DNA of 64,000 nucleotides from Manis javanica (Eukaryota; Chordata; Mammalia; Pholidota; Manidae), in the NCBI RefSeq assembly GCF_040802235.1, contig NW_027332181.1, forward strand, positions 186,001 through 250,000, written 5' to 3'. Below are positions 15,601-64,000 of this stretch, piece after piece (within the stretch, counting starts at the first letter, position 1; every line of letters begins with the position of its first letter). The position numbers and the translations under genes are program-made. The notes under the pieces were generated by a model. It was given only the letters and a program-made list of their open reading frames with translations, did no database searches and was not told the DNA's origin.

Positions 15601-18600
15601 CAAACTCATTCTATGAAGCCAGCATCACCCTAATACCAAAACCAGGCAAAGACCCACGAAAAAAGAAAATTACAGACCAATATCCCTGACAAACATAGTT
15701 GCAAAAATACTCAACAAAATATTAGCAAACCGAATTCAAAAATACATCAAGAGGATCATACACCATGACCAAGTGGGATTCATCTCAGGGATGCAAGGAT
15801 GGTACAAAATTTGAAAATCCATCAACAGGAGGTGGAGCCAAGATGGCGGCATGAGTAGAGTAGCGGAAATCTCCTCCCAAAACCAAATATATTTTTGAAA
15901 ATACAACAAAGAACTCTTCCTAAAAGAGAGACCAGAAGACACAGGACAACATCCAGACCACATCCACACCTGCGAGAACCCAGCGCCTCGTGAAGGGGGT
16001 AAGATACAAGCCCCGGCCCAGTAGGACCCAAGCACCCCACACCCCAGCTCCAGGTGGGAGGAGAGGAGTCGGAGCGGGAAGGGAGAGGGAGCCCAGGACT
16101 GCTAAATAGCCAGCCCTAGCCATCCACACCAGAGCGCAGACACAGTGCATGCATGGGGTCCTGGATAATAGGGAAACAGGATAGTAAGGCCTGTAAGCGG
16201 GTCCCCGCGGCCGGCGCTCTGGGACAAAGAAAAGCGAGTGCTTTTTGGAAGTCTTAAAGGGACAGGGACCCCACTGCTGGACTGAAGTGTCCTGGGACAA
16301 TTCAGTCTAGCAGCAAGGAATCTGGGGAACTCTGGGCACTCTAAACCCCTGGGGAGCAGGGAGCACGGAGGCCCCTCACAGAGATAAATAACCTCCCAGC
16401 CGTTCCCCCTTCAACGTGGCTCCACCATACAGGAGCAGCAGCCCGAGGCAGGGCACGCTCAGTGCAACAGCAGAGATAAACTCCATGGCGGCTAGGCAAG
16501 AATCAGAAGCCCCGTCTGCATGCAGCTGCCCATCACAAGCCACTAGAGGTCGCTGATCTCCCGGAGAGGAAGGCCACAAACCAACAAGAAGGGAAGTTCT
16601 TCCAGCCGTTACTCGTACCAGCTCTGCAAACTATCTCTATCGCCATGAAAAGGCAAAATTTCAGGCAGACAAAGATAACAGAGACAACACCTGTGAAGGA
16701 GACAAACCTAAACAGTCTTCCTGAAAAAGAATTCAAAATTAAAATCATAAACATGCTGACGGAGATGGAGAGAAATATACAAGAGCTAAGGGATAAAGTC
16801 CGGAGGGAGATTACAGATGCCCAGAAAGAGATTACAGAAGTGAAACAAACTCTGGAAGGATTTGTGAGCAGAATGAATAAGATGCAAGAGCCCACTGATG
16901 GAATAGAAACCAGAGAACAGGAACACATAGAAGCTGACATAGAGAGAGATAAAAGGATCTCCAGGAATGAAACAATATTAAGAGAACTGTGTGACCAATC
17001 CAATAGGAACAATATCCATATTATAGAGGTACCAGACGAAGAAGAGGGAAAAAGGGATAGAAAGCGTCTTTGAAGAAATAATTGCTGAAAACTTCCCCAA
17101 ACTGGGGGAGGAAATAATCAAACAGACCACGGAAATACACAGAACTCCCAACAGAAAGGACCCAAGGAGGACAACACCAAGACACATAACAATTAAAATG
17201 GCAAAGGTCAAGGACAAGGACAGAGTTTTAAAGGCAGCTAGAGAGAAAAAGGTCATCTATAAAGGAAAACACATCAGGCTATCATCAGACTTCTCAACAG
17301 AAACCTTACAGGCCAGAAGAGAATGGTATGATATATTTAATGAATGAAACAGAAGGGCCTTGAACCAAGGATACTGTATCTAGCATGATTATCATTTAAA
17401 TATGAAGGAGGGATTAAACAATTCTCAGACAAGCAAAAGTAGAGGAATTTGCCTCCCACAAACCACCTCTACACGGTATTTTAGAGAGACTTTTCTAGAT
17501 GGGAGCACTCCTAAAACTAAACAGATGTCACCAGAGAAAATAAAATCACACCAAAGAAAGCAGACCAACCAAATACTAACTAAAGACAAAAAATAAAATC
17601 AACTACCCACTAAAAGCAGTTAAAGGAAACACGAAAGAGCACAGAATAAAACAACCAACATATAAAGAATGGAGGAGGATGAATAAGAAGGGAGAGAAGA
17701 GAAAAATCTCCAGACTGTGTATATAACAGCTCAATAAGCGAGCTAAGTTAGGCAGTAAGATACTAAAGAAGCTAACCTTGAACCTTTGGTGACCACGAAT
17801 CTAAAGCCTGCAATGGCAAAAAGTACGTATCTTTCAATAGTCACCCTAAATGTAAATGGACTGAATGCACCAATCAAAAGACACAGAGTAACAGAATGGA
17901 TAAAAAAGCAAGGCCCATCTATATGCTGCTTACAAGAAATTCACCTCAAACCCAAAGACATGCACACACAAAAAGTCAAGAGATGGAAAAACATACTTCA
18001 GGAAAACAAAAGAAAGATGAAAGCAGGGGTTGCAGTACTAGTATCAGACAAAATAGACTTCAAAACAAAGAAAGTAACAAGAGATAAAAAAGGACATTAC
18101 ATAATGATAAAGGGCTCAGTCCAACAAGACGACATAACCATTCTAAATATATATGCATTCAACACAGGAGCACCAGCATATGTGAAACAAATACTAACAG
18201 AACTAAAGGGGGAAATAGAATGCAATGCATTCATTTCAGGAGACTTCAACATGCCACTCACCCCAAAGGATAGATCCACTGGGCAGAAAATAAGTAAGAA
18301 CATGGAGGCACTGAACAACACACTAGAACAGATGGACCTAATAGACATCTATAGAACTCTACATCCAAAAGCAACAGGATATACATTCTTCTCAAGTGCA
18401 CATGGAACATTCTCCAGAATAGACCACATACTAGCCCACAAAAACAGCCTCAGTAAATTCCAAAAGATTGAAATTCTACCAACCAACTTTCCAGACCACA
18501 AAGGTATAAAACTAGAAATAAATTCTACAAAGAAAACAAAAAGGCTCACAAACACATGGAGGCTTAACAACATGCTCCTAAATAACCAATGGATCAACGA

Positions 18601-21600
18601 ACAAATTAAAACAGAGATCAAGGAATATATGGAAACAAATGACAACAACAACACAAAGCCCCAACTTCTGTGGGACGCAGCAAAAGCAGTCTTAAGAGGA
18701 AAGTATATAGTGATCCAGGCACACTTAAAGAAGGAAGAACAATCCCTAATGAATAGTCTAACATCACAATTATCGAAACAGGAAAAAGAAGAACAAATGC
18801 GGCCTAAAATCAGCAGAAGGAGGGACATAATAAAGATCAGGGAAGAAATAAACAAAATTGAGAAGAATAAAACAATAGCAAAAATCAACGAAACCAAGAG
18901 CTGGTTCTTTGAGAAAATAAACAAAATAGATAAGACTCTAGACAAACTTATTAAGAGAAAAAGAGAATCAACACAAATCAACAGAATCAGAAATGAGAAT
19001 GGAAAAATCACAACATACCCTACAGAAATACAAAGAATTATTAAAGATTACTATGAAAACCTATATGCCAACAAGCTGGAAAAAATAGAAGAAATGGACA
19101 ACTTCCTAGAAAAATACAAACTTCCAAGACTGACCAAGGAAGAAACACAAAAGTTAAACAAACCAATTACGAGCAAAGAAATTGAAATGGTAATCAAAAA
19201 ACTACCCAAGAAGAAAACCCCTGGGCCAGACGGATTTACCTCAGAATTTTATCAGACACACAGAGAAGACATAATACCCATTTACCTTAAAGTTTTCCAA
19301 AAAATACAAGAGGAGGGAATACTCCCAACCTCATTCTATGAAGCCAACATCATCCTAATACCAAAACCAGGCAAAGACCCCACCAAAAAAGAAAATTACA
19401 GACCAATATCCCTGATGAACGTAGATGCAAAAATACTCAATAAAATATTAGCAAACCGAAATCAAAAATATATCGAAAGAATCATACACCATGACCAAGT
19501 GGGATTCATCCCAGGGATGCAAGGATGGTACAACATTTGAAAATCCATCAACATCATCCACCACATCAACAAAAAGAAAGACAAAAACCACATGATCATC
19601 TCCATAGATGCTGAAATAGCATTTGACAAAATTCAACATCCATTCATGATAAAAACTCTCAGCAAAAATGGGTATAGAGGGCAAGTATCTCAACATAATA
19701 AAGGCCATATATGATAAACCCACAGCCAGCATTATACTGAATAGTGAGAAGCTGAAAGCATTTCCTCTGAGATCGGGAACCACACAGGGATGCCCACTCT
19801 CCCCACTGTTATTTAACATAGTACTGGAGGTCCTAGCCATGGCAATCAGACAAAACAAAGAAATACAAAGAATCCAGATTAGTAAATAAGAAGTTAAACT
19901 GTCACTATTTGCAGATGATATGATACTGTACATAAAAAACCCTAAAGACTCCACTCCAAAACTACTAGAACTGATATCAGAATACAGCAAAGTTGCAGGA
20001 TACAAAATTAACACACAAAATCTGTAGCTTTCCTATACACTAACAATGAAGCAACAGAAAGAGAAATCAGGAAAACAATTCCATTCACCATTGCATCAAA
20101 AAGAATAAAATATCTAGGAATAAACCTAACCAAAGAAGTGAAAGACTTATACTCTGAAAACTACACGTCACTCTTAAGAGAAATTAAAGGGGACACTAAT
20201 AAATGGACACTCATCCCACACTCATGGCTAGGAAGAATTAATATCGTCAAAATGGCCATCCTGCCCAAAGCAATATACAGATTTGATGCAATCCCTATCA
20301 AATTACCAGCAACAATCTTCAATGAATTGGAACAAACAATTCAAAAATTCATATGGAAACACCAAAGACCCCGAATAGCCAAAGTAATCCTGAAAAAGAA
20401 GAATAAAGTAGGGCGGATCTCACTCCCCAACTTCAAGCTCTACTACAAAGCCATAGTAATCAAGACAATTTGGTACTGGCACAAGAACAGAGCCACAGAC
20501 CAGTGAAACAGATTAGAGACTCCAGAAATTAACCCAAACATATATGGTCAATTAATATTTGATAAAGGAGCCATGGAAATACAATGGCAAAATGACAGTC
20601 TCTTTAACAGGTGGTGCTGGCAAAACAAGACAGCTACATGTAGGAGAATGAAACTGGACCATTGTCTAACCCCATATACAAAGGTAAACTCAAAATGGAT
20701 CAAAGACCTGAATGTAAGTCATGAAACCATTAAACTCTTGGAAAAAAACATAGGCAAAAACCTCTTAGACATAAACATGAGTGATCTCTTCTTGAACATA
20801 TCTCCCCGGGCAAGGAAAACAACAGCAAAAATGAGCAAGTGGGACTACATTAAGCTGAAAAGCTTCTGTAAAGTGAAGGACACCATCAATAGAACAAAAA
20901 GGAACCCTACAGTATGGGAGAATATATTTGAAAATGACAGATCCAATAAAGGCTTGACGTCCAGAATATATAAAGAGCTCACACGCCTCAACAAACAAAA
21001 AACAAATAACCCAATTAAAAAATGGGCAGAGGAACTGAACAGTTCTCTAAAAAAGAAATACAGATGGCCAAGAGACACAAGAAAAGATGCTCCACATCGC
21101 TAATCATCAGAGAAATGCAAATTAAAACTACAATGAGGTATCACCTCACACCAGTAAGGATAGCTGCCATCCAAAAGACAAACAACAACAAATGTTGGCG
21201 AGGCTGTGGAGAAAGGGGCACCCTCCTACACTGCTGGTGAGAATGTAAATTAGTTCAACCATTGAGGAAAGCAGTTTGGAGGTTCATCAAAATGCTCAAA
21301 ACAGACCTACCATTTGACCCAGGAATTCCACTCCTAGGAATTTACCCTAAGAACGCAGCAATCAAGTTTGAGAAAGACAGATGCACCCCTATGTTTATCG
21401 CAGCACTATTTACAATAGCCAAGAATTGGAAGCAACCTAAATGTCCATCGGTAGATGAATGGATAAAGAAGATGTGGTACATATACACAATGGAATACTA
21501 CTCAGCCATAAGAAGAGGGGAAATCCTACCATTTGCAGCAACATGGATGGAGCTGGAGAGTATTATGCTCAGTGAAATAGCCAAGTGGTGAAAGAGAAAT

Positions 21601-24600
21601 ACCAAAAGATTTCACTCATCTGAGGAGTATAAGAACAAAGGAAAAACTGAAGGAACAAAACAGCAGCAGAATTACAGAACCCAAAAATGGACTAACAGGT
21701 CCAAAGGGAAAGGAACTGGGGAGGAAGGGTGGGCAGGGAGGGATAAGGGGGGGGAAGAAGAAGGGGGGTATTAAGATTAGCATGCATGGGGGGGAGGGAG
21801 AAAGGGGAGGGAGGGCTATACAACACAAAGAGGACAAGTAGTGATTCTACAACATTTTGCTATGCTGATGGACAGTAACCGTAATGTGGTTTTTAGGGGG
21901 GACCTGATATAGGGAGAGCATAGTAAACATAGTATTCTTCATGTAAGTGTAGATTAAAGACTAAAAAAAAAAAAAAAAGAAAGAAAGAAAAGGGGGATTA
22001 CTCCTTGATAGGATAAAACTATTGGTAAATCAAAGATTAACACATGCTTTAAATATCCTTAATGTTGATCACTTAAAGGGTGTCAGATGATCAGCTATGG
22101 AGGTACTCTTTTCTGATAATATTCCTTTCTCTTAATAAAAAAAAAAAAGAAAGCAGCTCCTGTGTGCTGACCTCCAATGAGTTCTACACAGTGGTATAGA
22201 GGGCATGTCAAAGTGTGGGCAAAGGGTCTGTTTGTTTCTATGCAGAAGATTAAGGCCTAGCTTGGCTACCCAGAAAACGAACTAAGATACGAAATGAGGA
22301 GGTGCTTCCAGCATCAGCACTCTCTGGAGGCCTCGTGCCGGGGGATGATCATCAAAAAGCCTCCACAGGGATCCGGCGATGCTGCGGTTGTGGCTGCGTC
22401 CACCCCACCGTTTCCTGGACTTGCCGTAGGAATGAGGAGGGAGATGTCTAGGCTGGCATGTGCATACAGTGAGACAACGAATTTGACCGGATCTGTACTG
22501 TTGGAACTCAACCAGGAGTTGGGAGGGGTGCAAGTTGTAGTGCTCCAAAATCTTACGACTATAGACTATCTACGGTTAAAAGAACATATGGGATGTGAAC
22601 TGATCCCAGAAATGGGTTGCTTTAATTTGTCTGATTTCTCTCAGACTGTTCAAGTACAGTTGGACAATATCCATCATATCATAGACAAATTTTTACAAAT
22701 GCCTAGGGTGCCTAAATGGTTTTCTTGGCTTCACTGGAGATGGTTGGTAATTATACATTTGCTTTGTTTATGTCACCGTATTACTATTATGTGAATATGT
22801 GTGCGCAAGTTAGTTAGTAGTTTAAAACCTATACATGCTTAAGGTACTCTACAAGAAGATATGTCAAAGAAATAATCAATCTTCCCATGTTTTCTTCCAT
22901 AAGCTACCTCTATAGCTTTTCTTCTTCCTTCCTAATTACAACCCTTAAATAGAATTCGTGCCTCATATCGAATTTACCAAGTATCATAATTCCTCCAAGT
23001 GGTAAAGATACCTCGAGAAAAGTGCTGGGCATAGAAGCCACAGGGCATAAATCTGCAAAGAAGTAAAAAAGCTAACCTTTTCAAACAATATGGCTTCTCT
23101 CTCACTTACCAACTTTACATTTCCCTGTATGGCCCTGGAAGATGACTGGTTAGCCAGAGACGGGTAAGATTCCTCAAGGGAGGAACAGCCTAAGACAGGC
23201 ACAGTCGCAGGGGGGCCATCAGGTGAGAAGTCGGGGAACAACAGTGGTGAAGCTTAGAACCTCACCCCCCCCCCCTGTTTTGAGAGAAAGCTTCTGCATC
23301 CATGGATGTTTTATTGCCCTTGTCTAGCTCGGATTAGCACATAGTCTACTGGCACACACCTGATCATCTACAACTGCTCTCTTACAACACTAAACTATGT
23401 TTTCTAACTTTATCTTGCATCTACCTACCACTTCAGCATTTTATGAAAAATAAAAATAATAATAATAATAAAGGGAGAAATGTGGGATCCACATATAAAT
23501 CAAGTAAAAAAATCAAATGAATATTCATATTTGACCTGATTGTTTATAGTTCATAATGCGTGATCAAAACCGAAAGTTTCTGTGATGAATGCCCTTGTAC
23601 TGTTCACCATGTAAGAACTTATTCACTATGTAAGAATTCGTTCACCATATAAGAACTTGTTCGTTATGCTTCAAAAGATTGGAGACTGATGAGAATTAGG
23701 CTTGAGATGGATTAATGATTGTGCATTGAGCACTGACCCCCCTATACAGAATTTTATTGTTGTTAACCATTTGATCAATAAATATGAGAGATGCCCTCTC
23801 AAAAAAAAAAAAACACTCAGCAAAATGGGTATAGAGGGCAAGTACCTCAACATAATAAAGGCCATATATGATAAACCCACAGCCAACATTATATTGAACA
23901 GCGAGAAGCTGAAAGCTTTTCCTCTGAGATCGGGAACCACACAGGATGCCCACTCTCCCCACTGTTATTTAACATAGTACTGGAGGTCCTAGCCACAGCA
24001 ATCAGACAAAACAAAGAAATACAAGGAACCCAGATTGGTAAAGAAGAAGTTAAACTGTCACTATTTGCAGATGACATGACATTGTACACAAAAAACCTTA
24101 AAGACTCCACTCCAAAACTACTAGAAGTGATATCGGAATACAGCAACGTTGCAAGATACAAAATTAACACACAGAAATCTGTAGCTTTCCTATACACTAA
24201 CAATGAAACAATAGAAAGAGAAATCAGGAAAACAACTCCATTCACAATTGCATCAAAAAAATAAAATACCTAGGAATAAACCTAACCAATGAAGTGAAAG
24301 ACCTATACCCTGAAAACTACAAGACACTCTTAAGAGAAATTAAAGGGGACACTAACAAATGAAAACTCATCCCATGCTCTTGGCTAGGAAGAATTAATAT
24401 CGTCAAAATGGCCATCCTGCCCAAAGCAATATACAGATTTGATGCAATCCCTATCAAATTACCAGCAACATTTTTTCAACAAACTGGAACGAAATTCAAA
24501 CATTCATATGGAAACACCAAAGACCCAGGATAGCCAAAGCAATCCTGAGAAAGAAGAATAAAGTGGGGGGACCTCCCTCCCCAATTTTAAGCTCTACTAC

Positions 24601-27600
24601 AAAGCCATAGTAATCAAGACAATTTGGTACTGGCACAAGAACAGAGCCACAGACCAGTGAAACAGATTAGAGACTCCAGAAATTAACCCAAACATATATG
24701 GTCAATTAATATTTGATAAAGGAGCCATGGACATACAATGGCAAAATGACAGTCTCTTTAACACATGGTGCTGGCAAAACTGGACAGCTACATGTAAGAG
24801 AATGAAACTGGACCATTGTCTAACCCCATATACAAAAGTAAATTTGAAATGGATCAAAGACCTGAATGTAAGTCATAAACCATAAAACTATTAGAAGAAA
24901 ACATAGGCAAAAATCTCTTAGACATAAACATGAGTGACCTCTTCTTGAACATATCTCCCCAGGCAAGGATAACAAAAGCAAAAATGAACAAGTGGGACTA
25001 TATTAAGCTGAAAAGCTTCTGTACAACAAAAGACACCATCAATAGAACAAAAAGGTACCCTACAGTATGGGAGAATGTATTTGTAAATGACATAACCGAT
25101 AAAGGCCTGACATCCAAAATATATAAAGGGCTCACATACCTCAAAAAACAAAAAACAAATAATCCAATTAAAAAATGGGCAGAAGAACTGAACAGTTTTC
25201 CAAAAAAGAAATTCAGATGGCCAACAGACACATGAAAAGATGCTCCACATTGCTAATTATCCGAGAAATGGAAATTAAAACCACAATGAGACCATCACCT
25301 CACACCAGTAAGGATGGCTACCATCCAAAAGACAAACAACAACAAATGTTGGTGATGTTGTGGAGAAAGGGGAACCCTCCTACACTGCTGGTGGGAATGT
25401 AAATTAGTTCAACCATTGTGGAAAGCAGTATGGAGTTTCCTCAAAATGCTCAAAATAGACTTACCATTTGACCCAGGAATTCCACTCCTAGGAATTTACC
25501 CCAAGAATGCAGCACTCCAGTTTGAAAAAGACATATGCACTCCTATGTTTATCACAGCACTATTTACAATCGCCAAGAAATGGAAGCAACCTAAGTGTCC
25601 ATCAGTAGATGAATGGATAAAGAAGATGTGGTACATATAGACAATGGAATATTACTCAGCCATAAGAAGAAAACCAATCCTACCATTTGCAACAACATGG
25701 ATGGAGCTAGAGGGTATTATGCTCAGTGAAATAAGCCATATGAAGAAAGAGAAATACCAAATGATTTCACTCATCTGTGGAGTATAAGAACAAAGGAAAA
25801 ACTGAAGGAACAAAACAGCAGTGGAATCACAGAACCCAAGAATGGACTAACAGGTACCAAACAGAAAGGGACTGGGGAGGATGGGTGGGTAGGGTGGGAT
25901 AAGGAGGGGGAAGAAGAAAGGGGGTATTATTATTAGCATGCATAATGTGGGGGGTGGGAGAAAGGGGAGGGCTGTGCAACACAGAGAAGACAAGTAGTGA
26001 TTCTACAACATTTTGCTATGCTGATGGACAGTGACTGTAATGGGGTTTGTGGGGCGGACTTGGTATAGGGGAGAGCCTAGTAAACATAATATTCTTCATG
26101 TAATTGTAGATTAATGGTAACAAAAAAAAAGAGAAAGAGAAGGGGGATTACTCCCTGATAGGATAAAACTAACTGCAAATCAACGATTAATGCATGCTTT
26201 AAATATCCCTAATTTTGGTCTTTTACAGGGTGTCATATGATCAGCTATGGAAGTACATTTTTCTGATAATATTCCTTTCTCTTAAAAAAAAAAAATGCAG
26301 TTCCTGTGTGGTGATCTCCAATATGTTCTTCACAATAGTATAAAGGTCATATCAAAGTGTGGGCAAAGGGTTTGTTTGTGTTTATACAGAGGATCAAAGC
26401 CTAATTTGGCTACCCAGAAAATGAATTAAGCTACGATATGAAGAAGAACTTTCAACATCAACATCCTCTGGAAGAGTCATTCCAGAAGATGATCATCAAA
26501 AAACTTCAACAAAGATCCTGGCGCTGTTGCAGTTGTAGCTGCATTCATCCCACTGGTTCCTGGACTTGCCATTGGAATGAAGAAGGAGATATCTAAGTTG
26601 GCCTGTGCATACAGTAAAACAACAAATTTGACTGGATCTATACTGTCGGAACTCAACCAAGAATTAGGAGTAGTGCAAGTTGCAGCGCTCCAAAATCGTG
26701 CGACTATAGACTACTGTTAAAAGAACATATGGGATGTGAACTGTTCCCAGGAATGTGCTGTTTTAATTTGTCTGATTTTTCTCAAAATATTCAAATTTGG
26801 TTAGACAATATCCATCATATCCCTAAGTTTTCACAAATGCCTAGGGTACCTAACTGGTGTTCTTGGTTTCACTGGATATGGCTGGTAATTGTAGGTCTGC
26901 TTTTGTTATGTAGCTGTATTCCTATTATGTTAATGTGTGTATGCAATTTAATTAGTAGTCTAAAACCTACACATGCTTATGTTACTCTACAAGAAGATAT
27001 GTCAAAGAAATAATCAATCTTCCCATGTTTTCTTCCATCTGCTACTTCTATAGCTTTTCTTCTTCCTTCCTAATTACAACCCTTTAGTAGAATTTGTGCC
27101 TCATATAGAAAATTACCGAGTATCGTAATTCTTCCAAGTGGTAAAGATACCTCAAGACAAATGCTGGGCATAGAAGCCACAGGGCATAAATATGCAAAGA
27201 AGTAAAAAGCTAACCTTTTCAAACAATATGGCTTCTCTCTCACTTACCAACTTTACATTTCCCTGTATGGCCCCGGAAGATGACTGGTTAGCCAGAGACA
27301 GGTAAGATTCCTCAAGGGAGGAACAACCTAAGACAGGCACAGTCGCAGGGGGGCCATCAGGTGAGAAATTGGGGATCAACAGAGGTGAGGCTTAGAACCT
27401 CACACCCCCTGTTTTGAGAGAAATCTTCTGCATCCGTGGATGTTTTGTTGCCCTTGTCTAGCTTGGATTAATAGTTAGTCTATAGGCACAGACCTGATCA
27501 TCTATATTTGCCCTCTTACAGCACTAAATTATGTTTTCTACCTTTATCTTGCATCTACCTACCACTTCAGCATTTTATTAGAATAATAATAATAAGGGAG

Positions 27601-30600
27601 AATTATGGGATTCACATATAAATCAAGTATAAAAATCAAACAAATAATCATATCTCACTTGATTATTTATAGCTCATGATGTGTGATCAAAACCGAAAGT
27701 TTCTGTGATATGACTGCCCTTGCACTGTTCACCATGTAAGAACTTGTTTGTTATGCTTCAGAAGATGGGAGACTGTTGAGAATTAGGTTTGGGGTTGATT
27801 AATGAATGTGCATTGAGTCCCCTATACAGAATTTTATTGTTGTTAACAACCATTTGATCAATAAATATGAGAGATGCACTCTCAAAAAAAAAAATCCTTC
27901 TACCCACCACCCACCCATTCAAATGAACATTTTTCAGTTACCCAATGTATTTATGCTTGAAGAAAATAAACTTCCCATTTGTTTTCAAAAAAAAAAATCC
28001 ATCAACATCATCCACATCAACAAAAAGAACAAAAATCACATGATCATCTCCACAGACGCTGAAAAAGAATTTGACAAAATTCAACATCCATTCGTGATAA
28101 AAACTCTCAACAAAATGGTATAGAGGACAAGTACCTCAACATAATAAAGGCCATATATGACAAACCCACAGCCAACATCATACTGAACAGCGAGAAGCTG
28201 AAAGCTTTTCCTCTAAGATCGGGAACAAGAGCCAGCAATGCCCACTCTCCCCACTGTTATTCAACATAGTACTGGAGGTCCTAGCCACAGCAATTAGACA
28301 AAACAAAGAAATACAAGTAATCCAGATTGGTAAAGAAGAAGTCAAACTGTCATTACGTGTAGATGACATGATATTGTACATAAAAAACCCTGAAGAACCC
28401 ACTTCAAAACTAGTAGAACTAATATTGGAATTCAGCAAAGTTGCAGGATACAAAATTAATACACAGAAATCTGTGGCTTTCCTATACACTAACGATGAAC
28501 TAACAGAAAGAGAAATCAGGAAAACAATTCCATTCACAATTGCATCAAAAAGAATAAAATACCTAGGAATAAACCTAACCAAGGAAGTGAAAGACCTATA
28601 CCCTGTAAACTACAAGACACTCTGAAGAGAAATCAAAGAGGACACTAACAAATGGAAATTCACCCCATGCTCCTGGCTAGGAAGAATTAATATCATCAAA
28701 ATGGTCATCCTGCCCAAAGCAATCTACAGATTCAGTACAATCCCTATCAAATTACCAACAGCATTCTTCAACGAACTGGAACAAATAGTTCTAAAATTCA
28801 TATGGAACCACCAAAGACCCCAAACAGCCAAAGCAATCCTGAGAAGGAAGAATAAAGTGGGGGGGGGGATCTCGCTCCCCAACTTCAAACTCGACTACAA
28901 AGCCACAGTAATTAAGACAATTTGGTACTGGCACAAGAGCAGAACCACAGACCAGTGGAACAGAATAGAGACTCCAGACATTAACCCAAACACGTATGAT
29001 CAATTAATATACAACAAAGGAGCCATGGACATACAGTGGGGAAATGACAGCCTCTTCAACAGCTGGTGTTGGCAAAACTGGACAGCTACATGTAAGAGAA
29101 TGAAACTGGATCATTGTCTAACTCCATATACAAAAGTAAATTTGAAATGGATCAAAGACCTGAATGTAAGTCATGAAAGCATAAAACTCTTAGAAAAAAA
29201 CATAGGCAAAAATCTCTTGCACATAAACATGAGCGACCTCTTCATAAACATATCTCCCCAGGAAAGGGATACAAAATCAAAAATGAACAAGTGGAACTAT
29301 ATCAAGCTGAAAAGCTTCTGTATGGCAAAGGACACCATGAATAGAACAAAAAGGCATCCTACAGTATGGGAGAATATATTCATAAATGACAGATCCGATA
29401 AAGAGTTGACATCCAAAATATATAAAGAGCTCACGCACCTCAACAAACAAAAAGCAAATAATCCAATTAAAAAATGGGCAGAGGAGCTGAACAGACAGTT
29501 CTCCAAAGAAGAAATTCAGATGGTCAACATGCACATGAAAAGATGCTCCACATCGCTAATCATCAGAGAAATGCAAATTAAAACCACAATGAGATATCAC
29601 CTCACACCAGTAAGGATCACCACCAACCAAAAGACAAACAACAAATGTTGGCGAGGATGGGGAGAAAGGGGAACCCTCCTACACTGCTGGTGGGAATGTA
29701 AATTAGTTCGGCCATTGTGGAAAGCAGTATGAATTCCACTTTTAGGAATTTACCCTAAGAATACAGCAGCCCAGTTTGAAAAAGACAGATGCACCCCTAT
29801 GTTTATCACAGCACTATTTACAATAGACAAGAAATGGAAGCAATCTAAGTGTCCATCAGCAGATGAAAGGATAAAGAATATGTGGTACTATACACAATGC
29901 AATATTATTCAGCCATAAGAAGAAAACAAATCCTACCATTTGCAACAACATGGATGGAGCTAGAGGGTATTATGCTCAGTGAAATAAGCCAGGCAGAGAA
30001 AGACAAGTACCAAATGATTTCACTCATATGTGGAGTATAAGAACAAAGAAAAAACTGAAGGAACAAAACAGCAGCAGAATCACAGAACCCAAGAATGGAC
30101 TAACAGTCACCAAAGGGAAAGGGACTGGGAAGGATGGGGTGGGGGGAGAAAGGGGGCATTATGATTAGCATGTATAATGTGGGGGAGGCCACAGGGAGAG
30201 CTGTGCAACACAGAGAAGACAAGTAGTGATTCTACAGCATCTTACTACACTGATGGACAGTGACTGTAATGGGGGTTTTGGGGGGACTTGGTGAAGGGGG
30301 AACGTAGTAAACATAATGTTCCTCACGTAATTGTAGATTAATGATACCAAAAGTAAAAAAGAAAAATAAATCACAAAAGTAAACAATTTTTATTTGCACT
30401 GGGAAATCAAAAAGTTCCTTTGACTCATTTTTATTGTGATATTCACTTTATTGTAGTGATCTGGAGCTGAACCCACAGTATCTCCAGGGTATGCCTGTAT
30501 GTAGCATGTTGCATTATATTTCTAATGGATTGGACTGCTGTTGAATATAAGGATACCTAAGCAATATTAGCATCTTAAAAATAAATGATAAATAACTAGT

Positions 30601-36600: not shown

Positions 36601-39600
36601 TAGACTGTTATATATTTAGGAAACTATCTTTGAACCTTATGGTCACCACAAACATAAAGCCTATAATAGATACAAAAAAAATTTTTTTAAAGATATCTAA
36701 TCACAGCACTAAAGAAAACTATCAAATAACAGGAGAACAGTGTAAGAGGAAGAAAGGAACTATAAAAACAACTAGAAAACAATAAAATGGCAATAAGTAC
36801 ATACCTATCAATAGCTACTTTAAATGTAAATAGACAGACTACACCAATCAAAAGACATAGGGTGGCAGAATGAAGAAACAAGACCCATCTATATCCTGCC
36901 TACAAGAGACTCATTTCAAACCCAAAGACACACACAGACTGAAAGTGAAGGGATGGAAAAAGATATCTCATCCAAGTAATAGGGAGAAAAAGCAGGAATA
37001 GCAGTACTTACATCAGAAAAAATAGACTTTAAAAAAAAGAAAGTAACAAGACACAAAGAAGGACATTACATAATGATTAAGAGGTCAGTTCAACAGAGGA
37101 TATAACCATTACACATATCTATGTACCCAACATAGGGGCATCTAAATATGTAAAACAGTAACAGAACTAAAGGGAGAAACAGACTGCAACTCAACAATAT
37201 TGGTGGATTTTAACACCCCAGTTACACCAATGGACTGATCATCCAGACAGAAAATAAGTAAAGAAAAAGAAGCACTAAACAACGTATTAGATCAGATGGA
37301 CTAACAGATTATCTATTAATAGAACATTCCACACAAAGCAGCAGGATACACATTTTTCTCAAGTTCATAGGGAACTGTCTTGCCAATGGGTTTCAGCCCC
37401 CAGGCAAGTTCACTAGAGATTCAATATGATCAAAGAAATTGACAGCAAAATGTTCTTTGGGGTGAAAGGGTTTATTCCCTGCTTGTTCTCCCAGCAGTAG
37501 GTCAAGCACTAGCGTCTCTGCCTCCCCACAAAGCACTGGGCCAAGCTCTCTATATAGCGCAATAATAGCTTATTGCCTAAAGGTGTGGAAGCAGTAGCCT
37601 AGCAACAGGCCAGTTACATCATCAGGTGGTTTAAGTTCAGTGAGGATCATGGCCATAGGAACCCCAACTTTCCCACACTCCACCCCTCCAGGATTCTCGC
37701 CTTACAATCTACACACTTCCAATCTTCCGCAATGGTCCCTGTGGGAGAAAGCTGGGGCACTGTAACCAGATTCCACAATAGCAACAGAGGATAACAACTT
37801 AGAGATCATAAAAATTAAGATACAGCAAGATTTTGATACAGGTAACAAAAATTGTAATAATCCCCAAGCTAGAGGAGGTTCCTAATAACAAAAAATTATA
37901 ACCTCCTCAAGCCAGAGGAAGTTCCCAATCCATAAAGACTTTAGGGGTAATAAGACACATTTTAATGACACCAACATAGGCAAATCTTGTCCACCAGGTA
38001 GAATGCATGCAAGACAGTGGTCCTGTGATAGGCCTGTAGCAGGAAGGGGGTCCCTCCCAGGTCTAGTACACCATACTTTTACTCCTTTCCCCATGGAGGT
38101 TACTGAAGGGTCTACATATAGTGCTACTGGAGGTGCATGCACTGGCCATAATGATAAAACAGAACTCCCTGGTAAGATGCTCTTATCTTCTGGCCATTCA
38201 GGATATACTACTGGGACCTTTGGAGGCCACTCTGCTGTTATTCCAGAAATACACAGGAGGCCAGCTTCCAGGCCTTGTCCCCAAGGTGCTAGGAGAGCCA
38301 GCCATCGTGGGTCCATATGTCGAAAGGTCCAAGGACATGTCCACTAAAAGGAGTCTCCGGGGCTCAGTGCAGTTGGTGCTGGCAGCAAGATATTATTCTG
38401 GTGGCCAAACCTCAGCTTCAGTGATTCTTCCTTGGTTTGTACTTGCACTTTTATAGGGGGGGGGCCATATGTGTTAAGATGTCTACAAAGCTCAGGGCTC
38501 GCTTTCGGGTCTCTTTTTCAAACGCTGTAGCATGGTCCATAAGCAGCCTGACCATCCCCGCAGACTATTGGTATCTGACTTTAGTCCGGATTTTAACAAG
38601 CCATTGTGCCTCTCTATCATGCCTGCTGCAGTAGGATTGTATAACACATGAAACTTCCCTTTGATTCCCAGTTGTCGCACCCATTCTTGCAGTGTATGTC
38701 CAGTAAAATGGGTGCCCTGATCACTCTCAATTACCTGTGGTTGGCCATAGGCAGCAAAGAGATGCACCAGGCTTCTTTTGGTCGTCTTCTGGTCTGCACA
38801 ACAGGTAGGAAAAGCAACCAGAAATCCAGTAGCTGTGTCCACACAAGTCATTACATACCGATATCCTTCTGACAGGTAGAGGCCCAATATAGTCTATCTG
38901 TCACCTGACAAGGGGTATAGGCCCCTTAGCTATTGTCCCATGTTGCTGTGAAACTCAGTGTGAGTCCCTTTTGGAGCACACGACACACTTCTGCCAGGCT
39001 CTACTAACTTCTTCAGAGGTTAAAGGCAAGCTCCACCAATGGGCTACAGCCCACATTGTCTTTTGTCTCACATGCAACAAACACTGATATAACCATTGGG
39101 CTACATCAGAGGCAGGCTTTCCTTCTAACCAATGTATCTGGGCCAATTTATCTGCTTCATCATTTCCTGGGGATGACAGTGGCAAATGACCCGTCACATG
39201 GAATACTATAATTATTTTAGTCTGACCATAGGCCCATAAGTCTTGCCAAAGTTCTTGCCCCTAAAGGGGTTGGTAACCAACCAGTCAGTTGGCATGGTAC
39301 CAGGTTGGTAGTCACAGGGTCAAGCCCTGATAGCCCAGCTATCAGTGCAGACAACTATAGGGGAGGGCTCCTGGCTGATTACAAGCCACACAGCCCGCGA
39401 CTCTGCCCATTGGCTGCTCTTCCCCTCACCATCTTCCATCCATACTGTCTCAGTCTTAGGATAGAAAGCTATGGCCCTCCATTTTGGGAGCTGCCCATGG
39501 CTGGAGCCATCTGTGTACCATGCATCTTCAGGTACAGGGGCTCTTCCCTCCCTATGGAGACTCTCTGCTACTAATGGTTCAAAAGCAAGTTCTTCCTGCT

Positions 39601-42600
39601 TTTCACTAGTATATGTCACCAACCCCAGTAAGTGTTGGGGTTCTACACTCAAGGGGCTACTAGAGAGGGCACTACACTGCTGTAGGTAAGCACCCCACTT
39701 GGCTAGTGTTAGTGTTTATGCCACGCCACTCCTTAAATTTTGGGTCCAGTCTTGTACCCACCCCAAGATGGGACAGGTGGTTATTACCTTTATTGGGGCC
39801 ATTCCAGTAATGGGTTCTGTAGCCAGCAAGGCATGATACACGGCAGCCAGTTGTTTTTCTATCAAAGTGTATCATACCTCTGCCCCTTTCCAGAGTTGTG
39901 ACCAGAATCCAATTGGGTGGCAAGTTCATTCAAGCTGCTGCCAGAGATCCAGCCATAAGCGTTTTCAGTCACATGAATATCCAGCTCACAGGGCCTTGAT
40001 GGGTCTATTACACTCAAGGCCTGCATGGCCTTCACAGCCCATTTTGCTGTAGTAAAGGCAGATGCACATGTCTCATCCCAGTCCCACCTGATGCCCTTTC
40101 GTACCAACTGGTAGACGGGCTTCAGAATTTGTGCCACGTGCGGGATAAACACTCTCCAGTAGCCTAAAAGACCCAGAAACTCCTGTAGCAATGCTATAGT
40201 TGTAGGGGTAGGAAAAGCCTGGACTTTGTCTATAACTGCTTCTGGTATAACTTTGGTCTTATCTGACCAGACGACCTCCAAGAGAATTTGACAGACAGAC
40301 CAGGTCCCTGAACCTTGGTGCTGTTCACAGCCCATCCTTTCTCCTGTAAATGTTGCACCAGTCTAGGTGCTGCACCTGCTAGATCTGAAAGAGAATCAGA
40401 CGTGAGCATGGCCATTGGTACAGCCACACCATTGGCAGTTTCTCCCATGTAGCCAAGTCCTAGGCTACAAGTCCATGACAGATGGTGAGGCTGTGGGACG
40501 TATCCCTGCGGAAGGATGGTGAAAGTCCACTGCCGTCCTTCCCACATGAAGGCAAAGTGTTCCTGACTTTCCTGCTCAATGTCAATGGAACAGAAGGCAT
40601 TAGCAAGATCTACTACATAATGATATGTTCCTAGTTCAAGGCTGAGGGTATCCATCAGGTCTGCAATAGAGGGGACAACAGCATGCATAGAGGGTATGAC
40701 TTTATTCAGTTCTCTGTAATCCAGTCATATTCCAGGAGCCATCTGGCTTTTTTACTGGCCACACTGGGGAATTGAAAGGACTATGGGTGGGCTTTATAAT
40801 ACCCACCTTTTCCAGCTCCTGGAGAGTTTCTCCAATCTTATTATGCCCTCCAGGAAGTTTGTATTGTTTGGTATTAGTCACCAGCTGAGGCACAGGCAAA
40901 GCTATGGGCCGGTGCCTAGCATGTCCCCTCAGAACTGCCTTCACCACATGTACTCTCAATCTGAACTCACCTGCAGTGGTCTGCACCCATAGACCCTGCA
41001 GGATATCAATCCCCAAAATATACTCAGCAATAGGAGATATATACACAGTATACTCCCTGACCTAACTGTACCATCTTCAGCTTAGTAAAACCTCTTCCCA
41101 GGCAAATGTATGATTTTCTTTCTTCTTAGGAGATTCATCATCAATTCTTTCAGACTCTTGATAACTGAGGCTTCCCCTTCTGTCCCTTTCTCTTCACTAA
41201 ATGCTGAATGAATATCATCTTGTCTTTTGGGTGTGCTTCTATTTACACAAAAATACAAAAAACTATCTTAACTTGCCTATGTCTTGTTTCATTCAGTCTC
41301 CCACCTTCTTCATTGTAAACTTCATCTGGATATCCTGATGCTACTACCTCAAGTTAACAGCACAAGACAGAACTTTTGTTTCCTCTAAGCTCTCCTTTTT
41401 GCCTAGTTTCTGTGCTATCGAAGACTAACACCCCTACGATTGGGAACAAGACAGGGATGCCCACTTTCCCCCCTTTTATTCAACACAGTACTGGAGATCC
41501 TAGCCACAGCAATCAGACAACACAAAGAAATAAAAGGCATCCACATTGGTAAGGAAGAAGTCAAACTGTCACTGTTTGCAGATGACATGATATTGTACAT
41601 AAAAAACCCCGAAGAACCCACTCCAAAACTACTAGAACTAATATCTGAATTCAGCAAAGTTGCAGGATACAAAATTAATACACAGAAATCTGTTGTATTC
41701 CTATATACTAACAATGAACTAGCAGAAAGAGAAATCAGGAAAACAATTTCATTCACAATTGCATCAGAAAGAATAAAATACCTAGGAATAAACCTTACCA
41801 AGGAAGTGAAAGACCTATACCCTGGAAACTACAAGACACTCTGAAGAAAAATTAAAGAGGACATTAATAAATGGAAATTCATCCCATGCTCTTGGGTAGG
41901 AAGAATTAATATTGTCAAAATGGCCATTCTGCCTAAAGCAATCTACAGATTCAATGCAATCCCTATCAAAATACCGACAGCATTCTTCAACAAACTGGAA
42001 CAAATAGTTCTAAAATTCATATGGAACCACCAAAGACCCCGAATAGCCAAAGCAATCCTGAGAAAGAAGAATAAAGCAGGGGGGATCTCGCTTTCTAACT
42101 TCAAGCTCTACTACAAAGCCACAGTAATCAAAACAATTTGGTACTGGCACAAGAACAGACCCATAGACCAGTGGAACAGAATAGAGAGTACAGATATTAA
42201 CCCAAGCATATATGGTCAATTAATATATGATGAAGGAGCCATGGATATACAATGGGGAAATGACAGCCTCTTCAACAGCTGGTGTTGGCAAAACTGGACA
42301 GCTACATGTAAGAGAATGAAACTGGATTACTGCCTAACTCCATACACAAAAGTAAACTCAAAATGGATCAAACATCTGAATGTAAGTCATGAAACCATAA
42401 AACTCTTAGATGAAAACATAGGCAAAACTCTCTTGAATATAAACATGAACAACTTCTTCATGAACATATCTCCCTGGGCAAGGGAAAAAGCAAAAATGAA
42501 TAAGTGGGACTATATCAAACTAAAAAGCTTCGGTACAGCAAAGGACACCATCAGTAGAACAAAAAGGCATCCTACAGTATGGGAGAATATAATCATATAT

Positions 42601-55800: not shown

Positions 55801-58800
55801 ACCCTTTCTACTAGCCCCTGGAGTGAAGAACTCCAAAGCTTACTGAGGCCAGTGACATATACCAGTGAAAGGCAGGAAGAATTTGCTTTAGAGCCATTAG
55901 TAGCAGAGAGCCCCTACTGGAAGGAGAGAGCCGCTATACCCAAAGATGCACAGTACACAGATGGCTCCAGCCATGGGCAGGCCCTGAAATGGAGGGCTGT
56001 ATTCTCTAATGTGTTCCTGCCAGCTCTGGTGAGATGGCAATTGCTGACAGTCATGTTTTGTGATCACAGACTGTCTGCCCACTCATATTTCCAAACCTAG
56101 ATTATGAATTATAATTCTTTTTTTCTGATCCTCCAACTCTTCCTCAGTCATAAGTCTGAATCTGTGCAAATAAAGGTTCGGTTCTCTAATTTCCAATATT
56201 CTAGGGTGCCTATCATTATCTCTGAAACTATGTTAAAAATCTACCCCCAACTCTCAGAACAGAAACTCATTTGAAATCTGCTTTATTATTTAAACAGCAA
56301 GCATCTGGTCCTTTTTCTGAAGGAGAAGAGAGGGACAGGGAAAAGAGGAGTGTCTCTAAATCAAATAATATTAAAACATCAACAATACCAAAGAAGCTTG
56401 GGGTCCCTGGTAGCCAGACTGCCTAAAGGATGTAGAAGTTTCACATCCTCTTTGACCTTTCTACTTGGCAAATACGTGGGATTGATCTGAATCTTAATTC
56501 ACAGACTGAGTTGAGGGTTAGTTTTAAGTAAAGGGTCATAACTTGCTCTACCTGAGTATATTTTTTTTGGACAGAAAGTGACCGTCAGTCCTGTCTCAGC
56601 AACTGGTGAGACCATCACGGTATATACATCCCCACAGGGTATCTCAGCGACATCACAAAAACTGAGGCCAGGGCGTGGGGCACAAGTAAAAATGCCTTTG
56701 GAACCATAGAGGTCAGTGCTATAATTGGCAGAGCCCCTGGAGGCTTGCCAGTAGATCCGGATGCCATTAGGGCCCAGCCTATATAATTTCACCCCCAAAG
56801 GACAGCAGGCACCTGAAAGATAAAAACAAACACACACACAAATTACTTATTCCACCATCACACAAACATGGCCTTAATTGCTGCAGGGAAACCATATAAG
56901 TAACCTCTTCTAAAAATATATGACTAGAGCAATATTTGCAGAGGTACTCAAGCTCTTTCCATGGTGGCCACATGACTAGAAATTCACATGTGAGGGTGAG
57001 GTGGGGCATGAAGTTTAAATAGAGGACAATGGTGAGTCAGTCCACCTGAGGCAGAGATGTATGGTATATGACTCAAACTTTATTATGAGTCAAAAGCAGG
57101 AAGTTCTTGTCAAGGTACTTGATAATGCCCTAGTTTCATGATTTTAGTGGGAATGAATTTACATGTAATTAATTGCATTCAGCTTGAATTGAAAAGACCT
57201 ATTTTGCTGAGCTGAGCAGCATGTCGCCTGGGGAGCAGTCACTTACACAAAGAGGCAGGTGACTAAGCTTTGCTCGTCCATGCTTCATCCATACTGGCTG
57301 ACGTGGTACTATTTTTTTTCTTTTCTAAGAATCTTGAGTAGGCGGTACATTAGGTGTCAAACAGGGCACCAAATGGTGGATTCCTCAGTAACTAAAGTAA
57401 TGATGTTATTGTATAATAATAAAAAATATTCAGTTACCATCAGTCTCATTTGATTTATAATTATTTTTTTTAAAAAGATGTTTTAGCCTCGAGACAAGTG
57501 CTGGGCATAGAAGCCACAGGGCATAAATCTGCAAAGAAGTAAAAAGCTAACCTTTTCAAACAATATGGCTTCTCTCTCACTTACCAACTTTACATTTCCC
57601 TGTATGGCCCCGGAAGATGGCTGGTTAGCCAGAGACGGGTAAGATTCCTCAAGGGAGGAACAACCTAAGACAGGCACAGTCGCAGGGGGGCCATCAGGTG
57701 AGAATTTGGGGATCAACAGAGGTGAGGCTCAGAACCTCACCCCCCCTGCTTTGAGAGAAATCTTCTGCATCCGTGGATGTCTTGCTGCCCTTGTCTAGCC
57801 TGGATTAATACTTAGTCCATAGGCACACACCTGATCATCTGATCATCTACATTTGCCCTCTTACAGCACTAAACTATGTTTTCTACCTTTATCTTGCATC
57901 TACCTACCACTTCAGCATTTTATTAAAAATAAAAATAATAATAATAATAGGAGAAATGTGGGATCAACATATAAATCAAGTACAAAAATCAAACGAATAT
58001 TCATATTTGACCTGATTGTTTATAGGTCATAATGCATGATCAAAACCGATAGTTTCTGTGATGAATGCCCTTGTACTGTTCACCATGTAAGAATTTATTC
58101 ACTATGTAAGAATTCATTCACCATGTAAGAACTTGTTCGTTATGCTTCAGAAGATTGGAGACTGACGAGAATTAGGCTTGAGATGGATTAATGATTGTAC
58201 ATTGAGCGTTGACCCCCCTATACTGAATTTTATTGTTGTTAACAACCATTTGATCAATAAATATGAGAGATGCCCTCTAAAAAAAAAAAAAAAAAAAAAA
58301 AAAGATGTTTTAGGTGTGAAGATAAGCCATGGGCCATATTTCCAGAATTGGGTATCAGGGTGAGAATTTAGGCAGCAAGTCTAATGGAAGAAATGGGCCA
58401 CAAGAAAGTGTAAACCAGCATACATATGTGGAGCATGTTATACACGCTTTCACATTACAGTTATTCCTGTTTCTCTTACCAGTGAGGAAACAGAATCAGG
58501 GAAGGTAAGGCAAAGCAGCTTATAAGAAACCATGTCTTAGTAGGGACTGTGGCATCTTACTACACTGATGGACAGTGACTGCAATGGGGTATGGGGGAGG
58601 ACTCGATAATATGGGTGAATGTAGTAACCACATTGTTTTTCATGTGAAACCTTCATAAGAGTGTGTATCAATAATACCTTAATTAAAAATAATAATAATA
58701 ATAAAAGAAAGAAGCCATGTCTTTAGACTCCTAGTTGAAGACTCTTTCTACTACCCCTGGGATGGCAACATTATGTTTCACCTCTTCCATCCCATGCCCT

Positions 58801-63555: not shown

Positions 63556-63745
63556 CTAAACTATGTTTTCTACCTTTATCTTGTATCTACCTACCACTTC
63601 AGCATTTTATTAAAAATAATAATAATAAAGAGAGAAATGTGGTATCCACATATAAATCAAGTATAAAAATCAAATGAGTATTCATATTTGAACTGACTGT
63701 TTATAGTTCATAATGCATGAGCAAAACTGAAAGCTTCTGTGGTGA
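63556..63745 (+). mobile_element. Fragment of the ERV-R-type element
   Basis: Matches the stretch just before the LTR ('aaactatgttttctacctttatcttg'), the purine tract and the first about 110 bases of the LTR (from 63638). It has no CTE part, poly(A) or clear target duplication, so it is a fragment. MER5A-like sequence (63760-63830) follows. Confidence 0.82.
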
Positions 63746-64000
63746 AAGCTTAATTGGTCTTAGGTGAATTTTATAAAAGCTCCCCAGATGCTCTTAATGT
63801 GAATCTAAGATTGAAAAACACTGGATGGTTCTCTCCTGCTTTAAATGACTAACTTGGAACTGCTGTGCTTTTGGAAGTGTATTTCTTATCTCTCCCCTCA
63901 CCCTCAGCTATCCCATCTTCAAAATAATTTCTGATGTGCCATCCACATTAATTTATAGTGGTCAAAAGAGAAGCTGAATCACCAAGTGTAGGGAAAATGG

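Follow-up and report, generated by a model that had tools for sequence, protein, structure and literature searches.

Structure of the L1 and ERV-derived units in the window

The window, by which we mean the whole stretch of 64,000 nucleotides of Manis javanica DNA that was analysed, holds two L1 units, each ending in a tail derived from an endogenous retrovirus (ERV), and a solo copy of such a tail. The features are the following:

15831..21962, + strand: L1 body of unit 1 (part of the 5' UTR, ORF1, ORF2 and its own 3' UTR), broken by mutations
21963..21978, + strand: A-run (a remnant of the L1 poly(A)) closing the L1 3' UTR and preceding the ERV junction
21990..23060, + strand: env-derived part of tail 1, at 70-81% to the env part of loci L008 and L049
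23131..23217, + strand: one-loop hairpin resembling a constitutive transport element (CTE), copy 1, in tail 1
23470..23801, + strand: polypurine tract (23470-23480) and LTR U3-R, with AATAAA at 23778-23783; boundaries set by eye
23802-23813, + strand: poly(A) of tail 1
23814..26131, + strand: L1 part of unit 2, truncated at its 5' end and set head to tail behind unit 1
26140..27894, + strand: tail 2, ERV-derived, with env part, hairpin and LTR part
27269..27355, + strand: CTE-like hairpin, copy 2, in tail 2
57487..58303, + strand: solo 5'-truncated tail copy with poly(A), flanked on both sides by the target-site duplication AAAAAGATGTTTTAG
57606..57692, + strand: CTE-like hairpin, copy 3, in the solo copy

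We found that positions 15831-23813 represent a near full-length member of an L1 family, whose left end at 15831 is not fixed to the base, and that a truncated member at 23814-27894 adjoins it head to tail. The first unit is collinear with six full-length genomic copies at about 94% over 17634-23484 and contains endonuclease and RVT_1 domains within 17759-19537. Both tails display the identical junction and order, running from the A-run of the L1 3' UTR through the env-derived part, the hairpin, the polypurine tract and U3-R to a second poly(A). A 15-nt target-site duplication (TSD), a poly(A) and a 5' truncation mark the solo copy as an L1-type insertion. Three further L1 copies in the window terminate in A-rich tails and carry no ERV sequence.

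Additionally, an isolated tail fragment consisting of the polypurine tract and the start of U3, with the hairpin absent, lies at 63556-63749, and broken pol pieces of another ERV occupy the minus strand at 38492-41061 (integrase core, E 7e-14; weak RVT_1 match). A retained env protein was considered and rejected, since neither the tail 1 nor the tail 2 env peptides match a Pfam family at E 0.01 (at E 5, tail 2 gives one weak, unrelated match) and the six full-length copies hold no forward frame of at least 150 amino acids beyond ORF2.

A full-length L1 family with an ERV-derived 3' end

When the genome was searched with the solo tail, the best 40 of 668 first-look candidates were scored and proved 98-100% identical over the whole query; the 30 best loci, one of them the window's own copy, were excised. 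The left edge of the ERV part is reached in 18 of the 30, and all 18 join the L1 3' end at the same point, while the remaining 12 break off within that part. Upon extending eight copies by about 10 kb upstream, we observe six full-length L1s with ORF2, ORF1 and parts of the 5' UTR; L041 is rearranged, and L044 has lost an internal piece along with most of its 5' side. Splicing as the origin of the internal deletion in L044 was rejected, as the junction letters conflict with GT-AG.

Clear TSDs were found in two of the six full-length loci, L042 and L043 (14 and 15 nt), both of which have a GGCGGC-bearing L1-type 5' end; no TSD was found at L040 and L045, and the matches at L039 and L046 look spurious. 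Among 12 truncated loci searched, eight carry TSDs of 9-18 nt that are not mere A-runs and the other four, only short A-rich matches, L033 being without a TSD call. Three of 12 truncated loci (L024, L033, L035) start at positions equivalent to 22150-22152, next to an A-run at 22138-22152 within the env part that is perhaps a stalling point of reverse transcription. Both L1 ORF1p domains (PF02994, PF17490), the endonuclease (PF03372) and the reverse transcriptase (PF00078) are present in L043, and ORF2 is interrupted in all six copies examined. For the group of copies related to tail 2, two upstream fetches yielded the 3' part of ORF2 in L101 and a copy cut off at the tail in L100, with no full-length L1 seen in these two. 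With ORF1 and ORF2 regions in six of the eight long fetches, the carrier is unlike SVA-type composites, which are non-autonomous and without L1 ORFs. The ERV tail is thus the fixed 3' end of an L1 family. A preliminary description of the window had spoken of an L1-mobilised ERV tail, of which the L1-type mobilisation is borne out but the separately mobilised ERV piece is not.

The exact 37-base core of the hairpin has 16,979 matches in the genome (8,469 + 8,510; reversed control, 0 + 0), far from the three copies first described. Exact matches of a 26-mer of the LTR number 5,574 + 5,678, and those of a 30-mer at the left edge of the ERV part 2,237 + 2,332. The mean pairwise difference is 2.3% within the young group of copies, 4.5% within the tail-2 group (11 copies) and 11.7% between the groups. 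At a mammalian substitution rate of 2.2e-9 per site and year, this gives a rough estimate of 20-27 million years for the split between the two groups and of about 5 million years for the young copies.

Loop motifs and folding of the hairpin

All three 87-nt hairpin copies noticed at the outset are present, and a pairwise count over them agrees with the 2-3 differences originally judged by eye. The motif pair GGTAAGA N15-45 CCTAAGACAGG is matched three times in the window, whereas 100 shuffles predict 0.01 matches, which places the CTE-type loop motifs beyond chance. Both stem substitutions singled out in the preliminary description retain wobble pairing; an additional A-to-G substitution in tail 1, at 23188, could also form a wobble pair, but the MFE fold of tail 1 differs there. 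The folding energies of the 87-nt copies are lower than those of shuffles (z = -2.5, -3.5 and -2.6), as is that of 106 nt of the solo copy (z = -3.1), and a 196-nt stretch around the solo copy displays no unusual stability (z = -0.26). In the MFE folds of the solo copy and tail 2, a helix of GGGU (AGGU in tail 2) with ACCU and a 6-bp hairpin, UUCCUC-AAGG-GAGGAA, stand above an internal loop, and GGTAAGA and CCTAAGACAGG face each other beside the stem, whereas tail 1 does not bring the motifs together and takes a different inner form, which counts against a conserved export element. The outer stem of the hairpin reaches CCUGUAUGGCCCC/GGGGGGCCAUCAGG.

Scanning the window against Rfam gave no match at the gathering score, and the best match of the hairpin itself (E 2.4) is unrelated. 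Four control loci with two- or four-lobed elements, together with their neighbours, were likewise without a match, so Rfam apparently holds no usable CTE model. The motif pair was also met in 31 stretches of viral contigs, in a scan run without a control.

The likeness to the type D retroviral CTE that had been proposed stands as regards the loop motifs and the placement, since an env part precedes the hairpin and a polypurine tract and LTR follow it, but not as regards architecture, as the type D element has two loops. The L1-borne hairpin has one loop per element, and two identical internal loops in one long stem were not found in it, which weakens the case for an export function; we therefore class the element as CTE-like, at most half a CTE, and not as a canonical CTE. 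Two or four lobes were found solely in other ERV loci of the genome. The provirus-like loci L049 (6717-7010) and L008 (1497-1800) display four CTE-type lobes in a row between env and the polypurine tract, apparently two complete elements each, and a separate ERV family, represented by L006 (1497-1620) and by further pairs among the matches listed, has a two-lobed CTE-type element directly before the polypurine tract. Elements with two lobes fold so that one lobe's 5' motif lies opposite the other's 3' motif, whereas in the L1-borne form both motifs of the single lobe lie opposite each other. A motif pattern with 20-40 bases between the motifs, which excludes the 19-base spacing of the L1-borne hairpin family, has 522 + 496 matches in the genome (controls, 1 + 4); among the matches listed, many are lobe pairs 71 bases apart and a few are insertion variants of the L1-borne family. 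The ERV lobes of the genome carry the loop motifs of the L1-borne hairpin on stems that are unrelated yet pair, which counts in favour of the export reading.

Constraint on the hairpin relative to the rest of the tail

The hairpin patch had been described as little diverged compared with the env part, and counts over tails 1 and 2 agree, with 5 differences in 174 positions over 23061-23235 as opposed to 62 in 300 over 22151-22450 and 45 in 293 over 22451-22750. Between tail 2 and the young full-length copy L043, divergence is 6.5-8.3% on the ORF2 side, 16% in the L1 3' UTR, 11-21% in the env part, 2.3% over 23061-23235 and 7.5-9.1% downstream.

We aligned 47 tails longer than 1 kb, comprising 27 of the 29 young loci (two being too short) and 20 others, and built the tree without the 175-nt patch. 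The young group had been sampled through a query that includes the hairpin, L084-L095 through env only, and L052 and L096-L099 through the motif pair. At non-CpG sites, the hairpin carries 3 shared and 56 private changes, compared with 245 shared and 817 private elsewhere (p 2.7e-4) and with 108 shared and 464 private in the 3' part alone (p 0.003); the motif core at 23160-23199 (38 non-CpG sites) has no shared and 24 private changes (p 0.002). Among eight blocks the hairpin has the lowest shared rate at all three thresholds, differing from the two env blocks, the two downstream blocks and the LTR (p about 0.02 or less). It does not differ significantly from the nearby upstream block 22841-23060 (p 0.09-0.12), which counts against selection on the hairpin in particular, and differs from 23061-23130 at the loosest of the three thresholds only (p 0.04, 0.07, 0.12). 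When 87-nt windows are slid along the tail, 62 of 1,544 are as low as the hairpin or lower, the lowest, at 23093, overlapping it.

With CpG sites included in the count, the 175-nt patch differs from the rest combined (p 0.002), but from neither of its neighbours (p 0.38, 0.17), a further point against. Shared changes at paired sites retain pairing in 8 of 8 cases, compared with 28 of 54 private ones (p 0.009), a contrast tempered by the fact that several of the eight recur at the same positions (23136, 23207). The hairpin shows no shortage of private changes (0.69 per non-CpG site vs 0.55), which indicates that single copies decay freely and that only the source lineage looks constrained. Furthermore, the best hairpin 37-mer is common to 33 of the 47 sampled copies, and 37-mers at 22845-22881 and 23397-23433 to 34 and 37, which also speaks against a privileged hairpin. 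Overall, the hairpin is under lineage-level constraint in the sample studied. The earlier suggestion of selection on RNA structure agrees with the few shared changes and the retained pairing, and is qualified by the upstream block, from which the hairpin is not significantly different.

Origin of the tail and proposed export function

An L1 poly(A) lies between the L1 and the additional piece and a second poly(A) lies at the end, as in 3' transduction, and the one shared L1/ERV junction points to a single capture event. In the proposed course, an L1 would have landed in sense orientation within the env region of a type D-like endogenous retrovirus, transcription would have read through from it to the poly(A) site of the retroviral 3' LTR, and the transduced piece (remnant of the L1 poly(A), env end, CTE-like hairpin, polypurine tract and U3-R) would have become the 3' UTR of an L1 lineage that was to be very successful. 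No parent provirus was found among the loci fetched, which counts against this course. The env part of the tail is related to that of the provirus-like L008 and L049 (70-81%). An env fragment of L049 matches structures of retroviral fusion TM proteins (4jpr, E 2e-8; 5h9c, E 2e-8).

L1 mRNA is intronless. The two loop motifs, facing each other below the local hairpin, would form a one-loop version of the retroviral CTE, and from motif, place and constraint we infer that the hairpin would most likely recruit NXF1-NXT1 to the L1 RNA and so aid its exit from the nucleus. Selection would then have kept the hairpin in the active L1 lineage, to the advantage of the L1. Direct recruitment of NXF1 by CTE loops is described in PMC4377836 and PMC7551171. 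A one-loop element may bind more weakly than two loops. According to PMC3045867, human L1 has an NXF1-binding element (Lindtner et al. 2002, cited there), and putting the native NXF1-type element back into a synthetic human L1 that carried an intron-bearing reporter slightly lowered retrotransposition, which counts against the proposed function; the authors of that work remark that an intron-marked reporter may bypass the need for export.

Weighing these observations, we lean slightly towards a read-through capture of a CTE-like hairpin, most likely an aid to NXF1-NXT1 export, that was kept by selection. The fuller account, in which the L1 lineage took a retroviral NXF1-recruiting element by 3' transduction, kept it under selection for its own RNA export over roughly twenty million years or longer, and thereby became a major family that seeded about 17,000 export-type hairpins through the genome, is put forward tentatively, as possible but short of even chances. 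It is rather unlikely, though a serious competitor, that the hairpin is a passenger that came with the captured ERV poly(A) site, its low divergence reflecting recombination or gene conversion between L1 subfamilies and an uneven history of the tail blocks. The gradual course of the ratio of shared to private changes (0.6 at 22172, 0.13-0.16 near 23022-23147, about 0.3-0.4 in the LTR) is what such a history would give, and neighbouring blocks are low too, with equally shared 37-mers in other stretches; yet the low divergence is bounded on both sides, the shared changes retain pairing, and private changes in the hairpin are not depleted.

Less probable again is that the conserved 3' part (about 22840-23240) has another task, for example in forming the 3' end of the L1 RNA or in its stability, translation or recognition as template, the CTE resemblance being due to descent only: the conserved region is indeed broader than the hairpin, but it is in the core at 23160-23199 that the 38 non-CpG sites combine 24 private changes with no shared one. 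That we are dealing with ordinary ERV remnants or solo pieces, close to L1 by coincidence of insertion site, has next to no probability. Parts of env, polypurine tract and LTR are held by the copies, as this would predict, but it is contradicted for the copies examined by the one L1 junction common to 18 of 18 loci reaching the edge, the cut-off inside the tail in the other 12 of 30, the fixed 3' end, the poly(A) and the TSDs.

Should the favoured reading of capture followed by selection for export be true, one class of mobile element would have taken a working RNA signal from another, and thousands of hairpins in transcribed DNA could alter the export of host transcripts with retained introns. 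The publications consulted appear to leave unsettled whether L1 retrotransposition is limited by RNA export, and the family makes the question testable. The parts are known singly: 3' transduction by L1, the spread of ERV-derived tails by L1 and NXF1 elements carried by L1. Among the titles and opening lines of abstracts listed, with subscription journals mostly outside the scope, we found no L1 with an ERV-derived or CTE-bearing 3' end, nor a full-length L1 family in which these parts together make up a fixed 3' end.

Comparison with known systems

The tail shares with L1 3' transductions the L1 poly(A), the additional 3' sequence and the second poly(A), and differs in that the piece has become permanent, as the 3' end of a family numbering thousands of copies. 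The 3' part of SVA (SINE-R) is derived from ERV env and LTR sequence. SVA is mobilised by L1 (PMC7353768). The spread of an ERV-derived 3' part by the L1 machinery is common to both systems, whereas SVA is non-autonomous and the carrier here is a full-length L1 with ORF1 and ORF2. The mouse chimeric L1/MaLR piece, as presented in PMC6500023, is a different thing from an L1 with an ERV-derived tail. The SERV-K/MER11 transport element resembles the L1-borne hairpin as an export-type element acquired by recombination between elements, but, as portrayed in PMC11379458, it is about 1 kb long, without recognisable NXF1 loops, and resides in a retrovirus.

The human L1 element described in PMC3045867 is likewise of the NXF1 type and located close to the 3' end of an L1 RNA; it lies at the border of ORF2 and the 3' UTR within L1's own sequence, whereas the element here is ERV-derived and lies about 1.2 kb past the L1 3' end. 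Finally, among TAP-binding elements and CTEs, the CTE of type D retroviruses (MPMV/SRV) also lies between env and the 3' LTR with paired loop motifs flanking a stem, the loop motifs here matching those that we take to be the motifs of the MPMV CTE. The type D CTE is carried by a virus and the element here by an L1, and the former has two identical 16-nt loops (PMC4377836), whereas the pangolin element has one.
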